A stretch of 64,000 nt of DNA from Deltaproteobacteria bacterium (GTDB lineage: Bacteria; Desulfobacterota; Binatia; UBA9968; JAJDTQ01): assembly GCA_026712905.1 (NCBI GenBank), contig JAPOPM010000073.1:1-64000 (forward strand), given 5' to 3'. Below, in pieces: positions 42,128 through 46,812 of this stretch. A program made the position numbers and the translations under genes. Numbering within the stretch: the first letter of the stretch is position 1; each line of letters begins with the position of its first letter. The notes beneath the pieces are model-generated. The model made no database searches. It was not told where the DNA came from and saw nothing but the letters and a program-made list of their open reading frames with translations.

Positions 42128-43279
42128 GTGTTCGAGCGACTCATCAAGAAACCCCTGGAATCGCGCAAGAGCTTCTTCCTCTTCGGCCCCAGAGGCACGG
42201 GCAAGACCACGTGGTTGAAGCACCGGCTGCCCGAGGCGCTTTTCGTCAACTTGCTCCAGTCGGAGTACTACAATCGTCTGTCCGCAAATCCCGGGCACCT
42301 TCGGCAACTCATTGCCCCCGACCACACCGGCTGGACCGTCATCGACGAGGTCCAGCGCATACCCGCGCTGCTGAACGAGGTCCATGACCTGATCGAAGCA
42401 CGCGGACTGGTCTTTGTCCTGACCGGTTCCAGCGCCAGGACCCTTCGACGAAGCGGGGTCAATCTGCTGGCCGGCCGCGCCCTGACCTATCGCATGCATC
42501 CTGTGACGGCGGTGGAACAGCGGGAGGCCTTCAACCTGCGCGACTCTGTCCAGTTGGGCCATCTGCCCGCGCGATTTAGCGAAAGCGATCCCGCCAAATA
42601 CTTGAAGGACTATGTGCAGACATACCTGCGGGAAGAGGTGATGCAGGAAAGCCTGACGCGCAACATCGGGCACTTCTCGCGTTTCCTGGAGGTGGCGAGC
42701 TTTTCCCAAGGGGCTACCATCAACACCAGTGCCGTCGCCCGAGAGGCGCACATTGAGCGGTCAGTCGCGGAAAACTACTTCTCCATCCTGGAAGACCTGC
42801 TCATCGCCGTCCGCCTGCCGGTGTTCTCCCGCAAGGTCAAACGGAAACTCGTCTCGCAAAAGAAGTTCTATTTCTTTGACGCGGGCGTATTTCGGGCGAT
42901 CCGGCCCATGGGGCCGCTGGACTCCGACGCGGAGATAAACGGTCCCGCCCTTGAGACGCTCGTGCTCCAGGAACTGAGGGCGGTAAACGACTACCGCGAC
43001 TACGGCTACCAGATCTCTTTCTGGCGTACCCGGAGTGGCACCGAAGTCGATTTCGTTCTGTACGGGCCGCGTGGCCTGCTGGCCATCAAGATCAAGCGCT
43101 CGACTCAGATACAGCACAAGGACACAAGGGCACTCCGGGAATTCAAGAAGGACTATCCTCCCGCCAAGTGTTTTGTCTTCTACGGTGGATCGAGTCCTGT
43201 CTACATGGATGATGTCACCGTTCTTCCCGTTGAGCACGCACTGAGAAGACTTGGTCAAATCTTGGGTAACGCCTCGTAG
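42128..43279 (+). CDS. ATPase with AAA_14 and DUF4143 domains (second copy)
   Basis: This 383-residue protein is a diverged paralogue of the one at 36267: Walker A GPRGTGKTT, Walker B TVIDEVQRI, FVLTGSSARTLRRSGVN, and the C-terminal EVDFVLYGPRGLLAIKIKR. Both copies lie between unrelated metabolic genes, separated by DUF192, GAPDH-II and tldDE. The GTG start is preceded by no strong ribosome binding site. Function is unknown. Confidence 0.85.
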   Translation: MFERLIKKPLESRKSFFLFGPRGTGKTTWLKHRLPEALFVNLLQSEYYNRLSANPGHLRQLIAPDHTGWTVIDEVQRIPALLNEVHDLIEARGLVFVLTGSSARTLRRSGVNLLAGRALTYRMHPVTAVEQREAFNLRDSVQLGHLPARFSESDPAKYLKDYVQTYLREEVMQESLTRNIGHFSRFLEVASFSQGATINTSAVAREAHIERSVAENYFSILEDLLIAVRLPVFSRKVKRKLVSQKKFYFFDAGVFRAIRPMGPLDSDAEINGPALETLVLQELRAVNDYRDYGYQISFWRTRSGTEVDFVLYGPRGLLAIKIKRSTQIQHKDTRALREFKKDYPPAKCFVFYGGSSPVYMDDVTVLPVEHALRRLGQILGNAS

Positions 43280-44031: not shown

Positions 44032-44265
44032 ATGCTTCAAGCCAAGTTCAGTCTTGACGAATCTCAGGTCCAGTTTCTCGCACAATTCAAGCGGTACGGA
44101 TTCAAGGACAAGAGTGATGTCGTGCGGAAGGCCCTCGACCGATTGCAGATGGAGTTAGCCCAGCAGCGTTTGCGCGAATCGGCTGAACTGTATGCCGAAG
44201 TCTATGCGGGTGATGGCGAAACACAAGAATGGACCGATGCGGCGCTATCGGAGTGGCCGACTTGA
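44032..44265 (+). CDS. Ribbon-helix-helix antitoxin
   Basis: This 77-residue protein has an N-terminal RHH-like segment (LQAKFSLDESQVQFLAQF, SDVVRKALDRLQMEL), typical of antitoxins paired with MazF-like toxins. The C-terminus is acidic (YAGDGETQEW), for toxin capture. The stop overlaps the MazF-like TTG start. It is preceded by the triple repeat at 43975-44014. Confidence 0.8.
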   Translation: MLQAKFSLDESQVQFLAQFKRYGFKDKSDVVRKALDRLQMELAQQRLRESAELYAEVYAGDGETQEWTDAALSEWPT

Positions 44266-44621
44266 ACCGGTTAACGCGAGGAATGGTCATCGACATTGAT
44301 CTTGATCCCACCAAGGGGTCGGAGACCGGGAAGGTTCGGCCTTGTGTGATCGTCACAAACAATACCTACAATGCTCGCGTCCCGGTCGTCCAGGTCGTGC
44401 CGCTAACGGCATGGAGTGGACGAAAGGCCCGCATCGTAACCAATGTGGAAATCGCGCCTTCGTCCCGCAACGGATTGACCAAGAAGTCGGTGGCGGACTG
44501 TCTGCAAACCCGTCCGGTTGATCACCGAGCTCGTTTGGTCAGCGTGCGTGGCAATCTGGAAGACGAGGACCTGGCCAGGATCGACGACGCTTTGAGAATT
44601 GTATTCGACATCGGTGGATGA
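44262..44621 (+). CDS. MazF/PemK-family endoribonuclease toxin
   Basis: This 119-residue protein matches the MazF/PemK fold: RGMVIDIDLDPTKGSETGK, RPCVIVTNNTYN, VVQVVPLTAW and QTRPVDHRARLV. MazF toxins cut single-stranded mRNA at short motifs. I chose the TTG at 44262, which follows GGAG at eight bases and overlaps the antitoxin stop (TTGA); a GTG at 44253 is possible. Confidence 0.85.
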   Translation: MNRLTRGMVIDIDLDPTKGSETGKVRPCVIVTNNTYNARVPVVQVVPLTAWSGRKARIVTNVEIAPSSRNGLTKKSVADCLQTRPVDHRARLVSVRGNLEDEDLARIDDALRIVFDIGG

Positions 44622-44625
44622 CCGG

Positions 44626-44835
44626 TCACAGGACCTTGTACCCCTTGCCCAGCACCACCCGCATCAGGGCGTCGATGTGGGTGACCTCGGGGTCGAACTC
44701 GACGACGGCGACCTGGCGCTCCACCGAGAAATCCACCTCGGCGACGCCGGCGGTGCTTCCGAAGACTTCGGTAAGGTCGGCCACGGCGGCCTCCGTCAGA
44801 TCGCCGATGGAGATGATGGCGGTCTTGGTGCTCAT
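44626..44835 (-). CDS. Heavy-metal-associated-like small protein lacking the CxxC motif
   Basis: This 69-residue protein has the beta-alpha-beta-beta-alpha-beta pattern of HMA domains (GVAEVDFSVERQVAVVEFDPE, IDALMRVVLGKGYKV). The metal-binding loop where CxxC would be reads IGDLTEAAVADL, with no Cys at all. Metal carriage is therefore unlikely; it may act as a regulatory or adaptor domain. It overlaps the hemerythrin gene by four bases, so the two are co-expressed. Confidence 0.75.
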   Translation of the reverse strand: MSTKTAIISIGDLTEAAVADLTEVFGSTAGVAEVDFSVERQVAVVEFDPEVTHIDALMRVVLGKGYKVL

Positions 44836-45329
44836 GGGGTGTCGGGTTTCGCGTCCGAGCCGGAGGGCTGATTCCGCCTCAGTACTCGGTCGATCTCCAC
44901 GCCGGCGCGTTCGGCGTCCGCCTCGGGTATGTACAGCTCGAAGGCGGCGAAGAGCTGACGCTCCTCGCTGCGGATGTGCTGCTCCAGCAGGTCGCCGAAG
45001 TCGAAAAGGAACTTCCGCATCTCCTTCGCGTCGCTCGACCGGGCGACCATGTCGCGGAACTTCCGGTGATCGCTTTCGAGCCGGGCCACCAACTCCCGAG
45101 AGTCTTCAAGGCTTGTCATCAGCGGAAAGAGCACCGTCTCTTCGGCCTCGAAATGGGTTTGCAGGTTCTCGCCGAAGAAGCGCGCCGCCTCAGCCGCGCA
45201 TGCCTCCATGGCCGCCGGGTCGCCGGGGTTGAGCTGGCCGAGGGCGTGCTTGCGGCAGCGCAGTGCCAGCGCCAGGCCGTGGTGGTGGTCGTGGGAGAGC
45301 GGTATCAGTGCGGGATGTCGTTTGGCCAT
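44832..45329 (-). CDS. Hemerythrin HHE-domain protein
   Basis: This 165-residue four-helix protein has the HHE-type ligands: HDHHHGLALALR, HFEAEETVLFP, ESDHRKF and EQHIRSEERQLF. It should bind a di-iron centre for O2, NO or redox sensing or storage. The start MAKRHPALIPLSHDHH is canonical. It is divergent from the OsmC-type gene, with 75 bp between the two starts. Confidence 0.9.
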   Translation of the reverse strand: MAKRHPALIPLSHDHHHGLALALRCRKHALGQLNPGDPAAMEACAAEAARFFGENLQTHFEAEETVLFPLMTSLEDSRELVARLESDHRKFRDMVARSSDAKEMRKFLFDFGDLLEQHIRSEERQLFAAFELYIPEADAERAGVEIDRVLRRNQPSGSDAKPDTP

Positions 45330-45404
45330 GGATTGCCACGCAAATTGACGGTGCCGGGTCTATCGGCTACCCTTCGTGCCACAAAGTTCCTGGAGGGTTG
45401 TTAT

Positions 45405-45890
45405 ATGGCGGACGACATGATCGTCAAACGCGAAGTGGTGATGGAGGCCGACGCCGAGATGATGGGGCGGCAGCAGAAGCGCGGCGAGGCGCGGGGTTTC
45501 ACGGTGATGTGCGACGAGGGCGGACACATCGGTGGCGACAACACGGCGCCGCCGCCCATGGCGTATTTCGCGCTGTCCATCGGATTTTGACTGCTCACCC
45601 AGCTTTCCCGGTACGGGGAAATGATGAAGGTGAAGATCGACAAGGCGCGCATCCACGTGACCGCGCGCTTCAAGAACGAAGGCTCGGTGTTGCGGGAGAC
45701 GGTGCATGCCGAGGGCGTCGGCGTCGAGACCAAGCTCGAGGTGGAGTCCGACGAGCCGCCGGAACGCGTGGCCGCGGTGATCCGCAACTCGGAGCAGGGC
45801 TGCTACATCATCCAGACGATCAAGAGTCCGACCCCGGTGGAAACGCACGTGACACTCAACGGAGCGGATTTCGATCCGAGCAGGAAGTAG
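45405..45890 (+). CDS. OsmC-family protein with in-frame TGA, probable selenoprotein (Sec at residue 62)
   Basis: One continuous frame from ATG 45405 (ribosome binding site GGAGGG) to a stop at 45888-45890 is interrupted only by TGA at 45588-45590. It encodes 161 residues. The flanks [17 protein letters not shown] and [16 protein letters not shown] are OsmC-family sequence. In homologues, as I recall them, the position is Cys (GFCLMTQLSR-like), the first redox Cys of the family. The second Cys is residue 133 in [15 protein letters not shown]-like hairpin lies four bases after the TGA. The downstream half would start at an internal Met with no ribosome binding site, so two separate genes are unlikely. 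The inferred role is peroxide or electrophile reduction in the cytosol. Confidence 0.82.
45595..45633 (+). promoter_or_regulatory. SECIS-like stem-loop downstream of the Sec codon
   Basis: The upper stem TTTCCC/GGGAAA (45604-45609 with 45616-45621) closes the 6-nt loop GGTACG. A lower stem TCACC/GGTGA (45595-45599 with 45629-45633) closes an internal loop. The apical loop begins 19 nt after the TGA, about as in fdhF-type bacterial SECIS, and contains the expected GG-start. I folded it by eye. Confidence 0.7.
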
Positions 45891-45942: not shown

Positions 45943-46812
45943 ATGGAGGTTTCTCTGGAAGGGACGGAAGCGCTGGTTTTCGACGTCGACCAGTCCGAGT
46001 TCGAGGCGCGGGTGCTGGAGCGCTCCCGGGAGACGCCGGTGGCGGTGGACTTCTGGGCGCCGTGGTGCGGGCCGTGCCGGGTCCTGGGGCCGGTGCTGGA
46101 GCGGCTCGCCGAGGAATACGGCGGCAAGTTCCTCCTGGCCAAGGTCAACGTGGACGAGAACCAGGAGCTGGCGGCCGCCTTTGGCATCCAGGGAATCCCC
46201 GCCGTCAAGGTGTTCAAGGACGGCGCTCTGGCCGCGGAGTTCACCGGGGCGCTGCCCGAAACGGGCGTGCGCGAGATCCTGGAGCGCGTGGTGCCTTCGC
46301 GCGAGGACGAGCTGGCCGCCGAGGCGGATCGATTGTGGTCCGAGGGTGAGGCCGAGAAGGCGCTGGCCATCTACGCGCAGGTGCTGGAAGACGTGCCGAA
46401 CCATGCCGGCGCGCTCCTGGGACTGGGGCGGGGTCTGCTGGAGACGGATGAGGAACGCGCCCTGCCGCTGCTTGAAAGAGTTCCCTTGGGTGACCCGGAA
46501 CGCAACGAGGCCGACCGGCTGATCGCCCGTCAGAAACTCAGCGCGGGCGAGGGCGCCGACATCGAGTCCCTGCGCGGGGAGTTGGCGGCGGCCCCGGACC
46601 GCCTCGACCTCCGCTTCCGCCTGGCCCAGGCGCTGGCCGCCGAAGAGCGCTACGAGGCCGCCCTCGGAGAATTCCTGGCGGTGCTCAAACAGGACCGCGC
46701 CTTCGAGGACGACGGCGCCCGCAAGGCGATGGTGCAGATCTTCGAAGTGCTGGGACGGAACGAACTCGCCGACCGCTTCCGCTCGGAGATGGCGAAGGTC
46801 CTGTTCAGCTAG
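45943..46812 (+). CDS. Thioredoxin-TPR co-chaperone (CnoX/YbbN family)
   Basis: Residues to about 125 are a thioredoxin fold with the redox motif WCGPC in [14 protein letters not shown]. The C-terminal half has TPR-like helical repeats ([32 protein letters not shown]). CnoX proteins protect GroEL clients from oxidation; here the CxxC is complete, as in the thiol-active members. Length 289 fits. It is 52 bp after the Sec-OsmC gene on the same strand, in a redox cluster. Confidence 0.9.

Follow-up and report, generated by a model that had tools for sequence, protein, structure and literature searches.

A gene on the forward strand of the 64,000-nucleotide stretch of DNA analysed here (referred to as the window), at positions 45405..45890, is predicted to encode an OsmC-like selenoprotein of 161 amino acids, followed by a TAG stop, with selenocysteine (Sec) at residue 62. 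In the explanation as a whole, which is drawn from sequence and to which we assign a probability of about 96%, SelB-mediated insertion of Sec at UGA62 would give a selenoprotein of the OsmC family that has a peroxidase or thiol-redox role and is recycled by a dithiol. What the first-pass annotation observed here is confirmed, and its interpretation is supported.

OsmC-like selenoproteins with a UxxT motif were described in 2005 (PMC1088965) and 2008 (PMC2398784) from the Sargasso Sea and GOS selenoproteomes, with 3 and 5 sequences in these first surveys, and are also listed in a 2026 review (PMC13188914). The first-pass annotation of this DNA had mentioned such reports, and the two earlier papers bear it out. 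This selenoprotein family, its UxxT motif and the NCBI model (NF041052, OsmC_like_Se) are already known and the gene in the window is a further member. It shares with the family an OsmC domain, Sec in place of the first redox Cys, the UxxT motif, a bacterial SECIS element directly downstream and the existence of Cys homologues. It differs in coming from genomes of Candidatus Binatia and their relatives rather than from marine fragments, in that a genome may have a single Sec copy or several, and in an adjacency to a thioredoxin-TPR gene that is kept in the genus. A literature search combining Binatota with selenocysteine turned up a single paper, whose subject is methane cycling in sponges. 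With this gene and its relatives, a selenoprotein family of which few sequences had been reported extends to a whole order with Sec and Cys copies side by side, and the exchange of Cys and Sec, together with SECIS loss, is therefore directly comparable in close relatives.

The reading frame and its internal TGA

The frame at 45405-45890 (+) is interrupted only once, by a TGA at 45588-45590 (+; codon 62). A six-frame scan of the 64 kb window for TGA codons flanked on either side by coding-like sequence places this one first, well above the rest. Read through the TGA, the protein matches the Pfam OsmC family (PF02566) at 57.3 bits and the NCBIfam model NF041052, ‘OsmC-related (seleno)protein’, with a score of 179.2 bits (cut-off 95). 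The predicted Sec, which is also indicated by the conservation of its column, is the first residue of the sequence ULLT, an instance of the published UxxT motif. A second conserved redox Cys is encoded by the TGC of codon 133 (45801..45803, +) in the context GCYI. Residues 62 and 133 are both invariant columns in an alignment of 11 sequences and both are aligned with Cys in the solved OsmC-like structure 3CJE. By sequence the protein belongs to the same family as the Cys OsmC/Ohr peroxidases (PF02566; 3CJE), with both redox positions aligned, although the residue that is Cys in those enzymes is predicted to be Sec here. The alignment to 3CJE is the sole basis on which Sec62 and Cys133 may be placed in proximity; structure prediction with seven closely related sequences as input reached a mean pLDDT of only 37.5.

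A putative ribosome binding site, GGAGG, was read in the sequence at 45392..45396 (+) and recognised by resemblance, 8 nt before the ATG at 45405. The alternative start, an internal ATG at 45621 that overlaps the hairpin described below, is preceded by a G-run only, 2 nt upstream, and has no properly spaced site, in agreement with the first-pass annotation, in which a ribosome binding site was placed before the upstream ATG alone. This bears on the possibility that the TGA is an ordinary stop, leaving either a pseudogene or two short proteins (residues 1-61 and a product restarting at ATG 45621). Under the standard code the frame does end at 45590 and an 89-amino-acid open reading frame does begin at 45621. 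The first-pass annotation had anticipated that gene callers would split or truncate the gene. The lack of a properly spaced site at the restart is at odds with an ordinary stop, as are the retention of the same TGA down to approximately 30% protein identity, with the remainder of the frame under protein constraint, and the observation that Cys is the sole alternative codon seen at column 62. We regard an ordinary stop as very unlikely. Because ordinary gene callers truncate at the TGA, the annotation of this gene and of its relatives is probably wrong in the genomes of uncultured bacteria.

The comparison across homologues covered 44 TGA-containing gene copies, aligned or read, which come from genomes of Candidatus Binatia and its relatives. 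In all 44 the TGA lies in the residue-62 column. It is present in 9/9 genomes of the genus. In the order, 31 of the 35 genomes searched contain a match over cut-off; these matches number 62, of which 54 contain a single TGA, three have both TGA and TAG and five have neither, giving a TGA-bearing total of 57/62. The five without (L101-L105), which occur within the same taxonomic order as the Sec copies, have TGC or TGT at column 62 in the context IA(S/A)IGFC, and Cys is also found at this column in more distant homologues. The proposal that the TGA falls exactly at the first redox Cys of an OsmC-type frame is upheld by this alignment. A divergent second OsmC gene (approximately 29% identical) is present in the genome from which the window comes (G000:C143:50542-50964), with a TGA in the same column and a hairpin of its own, and is found in 8/9 genomes of the genus. 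The three OsmC_like_Se copies in which a TAG accompanies the TGA (G420:C189, G412:C90 and G419:C302) are probably decaying paralogues.

The same comparison addresses the idea that a TGC, TGT or TGG was turned into TGA by an error of sequencing or assembly. The genome from which the window comes is indeed a draft, in 280 contigs. However, nine separate members of the genus carry the TGA, as do many further genomes of the order, among them the single-contig chromosome G007, and since the identical codon occurs in independently assembled genomes it is not a sequencing error; the likelihood of such an error is next to negligible. Misreading of TGC or TGT as TGA, which the first-pass annotation had raised against its own proposal, can be set aside on these grounds.

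A predicted SECIS element downstream of the TGA

A predicted bacterial SECIS element was located at 45598..45630 (+), with a folding energy of -8.5 kcal/mol. Its apical loop, GGTACG (45610-45615), starts 19 nt after the TGA, where the first-pass annotation had placed a SECIS-like structure, and its upper stem is formed by TTTCCC (45604-45609) with GGGAAA (45616-45621). In an alternative register 45604-45609 pairs with 45615-45620 around a 5-nt loop, GGTAC. The published bacterial SECIS model (PMC13188914, Fig. 2) describes a loop of 3-9 nt with a G within its first two positions, an upper stem of 4-16 bp, a distance of 16-37 nt from the UGA and a minimum free energy of at most -7.5 kcal/mol. 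The hairpin agrees with this geometry, having a loop of 6 (or 5) nt that opens with GG, 6 bp and a distance of 19 nt. Its minimum free energy is -7.3 kcal/mol for the bare hairpin, slightly above the published limit, and -8.1 to -14.7 kcal/mol with flanking bases. Folding of the single sequence 45588-45640, which had been suggested as a check, was unimpressive (z = -1.34). An equally good hairpin follows approximately 11-14% of the codons in neighbouring genes, and the hairpin by itself is for this reason weak evidence rather than proof.

Comparison between genes is more informative. In a covariation test on ten distinct sequences the six stem pairs were kept in 100% of cells, with 15 double-changed cells, and 0/500 shuffles reached the observed pairing or covariation score; every slid register scored far lower. 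Three of the six pairs are changed on both sides between paralogues, being TTTCCC/GGGGAA in the group of this gene (the register that is common to this group and the paralogues) and TGACGC/GCGTCA in the other. These three double changes trace mainly to one deep split between paralogue groups and there are therefore few independent covariation events. All six upper-stem pairs are intact in 40/44 Sec copies, whereas the stem is largely absent (1 to 4 pairs) from 4/5 of the closest Cys copies. Silent differences among ten orthologues point in the same direction, with 2/12 informative codons affected in the hairpin region against 93/139 elsewhere (Fisher p = 0.0009). The 12-codon segments in which silent conservation is strongest within the gene begin at codons 64-68. 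The case for this putative SECIS element is settled by conservation, in the form of pairing, covariation and silent-site constraint, and not by the fold of a single sequence.

Selenocysteine machinery in the genome and its relatives

The genes needed for Sec decoding, selA, selB, selC and selD, are all over cut-off in the genome from which the window comes, a check that the first-pass annotation had proposed. By profile matches selD, selB and selA lie in tandem on C102 (16403-20843), with scores of 370, 381 and 578 bits respectively, and a tRNA-Sec gene is present on C263 (73.1 bits; ARAGORN tRNA-SeC tca). The selD gene (G000:C102:16403-17329) has an in-frame TGA of its own in the context VKAAG*AAKLG. 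This fits a Sec-containing SelD, for which a UxxK motif is listed (PMC13188914), and judged by sequence the SelD of this genome is likely to be a selenoprotein itself.

In the genome G006 selA, selB and selD were found and tRNA-Sec was without a match over cut-off, a gap that fits the incompleteness of this genome (76% complete). The related genome G206 (L048, L096) is an exception. It contains a TGA-OsmC gene with an identical SECIS stem and is estimated to be 100% complete, and selA, selB, selD and tRNA-Sec were all without a match over cut-off. This could reflect missing contigs, mis-binning or a trait that was lost only recently.

The machinery also bears on readthrough of a kind other than Sec insertion, whether by genome-wide decoding of TGA as Trp or Gly or by plain near-cognate readthrough. 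Any code in which TGA stands for an amino acid would keep the frame open, but no other TGA in the window has comparable coding sequence on both sides, the homologues carry Cys and not Trp or Gly, the hairpin follows the TGA and the genome has the full Sec machinery. Readthrough of this kind is extremely improbable. Pseudogene formation, sequencing error and an alternative genetic code were rejected on the conservation of the TGA, the independent assemblies and the Cys homologues.

Proposed mechanism and gene neighbourhood

In the proposed selenoprotein mechanism SelB and Sec-tRNA-Sec, the machinery being recognised by sequence, would bind the hairpin just downstream of UGA62 so that Sec is inserted and termination does not occur. 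The mature protein would most likely act as an OsmC/Ohr-type peroxidase or thiol-redox enzyme, in which the Sec62 selenolate may attack a hydroperoxide or other oxidant and Cys133 may resolve the product to form a selenenylsulfide. Only the pair of conserved redox positions points to hydroperoxide reduction. The presence of Sec in place of Cys would be expected to increase the reactivity of the attacking residue. The selenenylsulfide would then be reduced by a dithiol, for example that of the neighbouring thioredoxin-TPR protein or of a lipoylated protein.

The thioredoxin-TPR protein is encoded at 45943..46812 (+), has a WCGPC motif and matches PF00085 at 93 bits and TPR_20 at 76 bits. Its gene adjoins the OsmC gene, downstream on the same strand, in 9/9 genomes of the genus; at L048, outside the genus, a thioredoxin-TPR gene is nearby and not adjacent. 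Family and gene order make this protein a candidate reductant of the OsmC-like protein. Lipoylated proteins are the reductant of classical OsmC/Ohr. It is conceivable, though we think it rather unlikely, that in this genus, unlike classical OsmC/Ohr, the Sec-containing OsmC protein and its WCGPC thioredoxin-TPR neighbour are partners in a selenenylsulfide peroxidase pair dedicated to this purpose. On the other side of the OsmC gene a divergent neighbour at 44832..45329 (-) encodes a hemerythrin HHE-domain protein (PF01814, 54 bits). Its position is kept in 9/9 genomes of the genus, and at L048 a hemerythrin was not found within the stretch examined. The two neighbours that the first-pass annotation grouped into a putative redox cluster, hemerythrin and thioredoxin-TPR, are present as named.

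A search of a phage collection gave zero matches, and Rfam on the window gave one tRNA and nothing else. Next to the hemerythrin gene, at 44229-44621 (+), the window encodes a PemK/MazF-type toxin-like protein (PF02452, 87.6 bits), and an AAA_14/DUF4143 ATPase-like protein is encoded at 42128-43279 (+).
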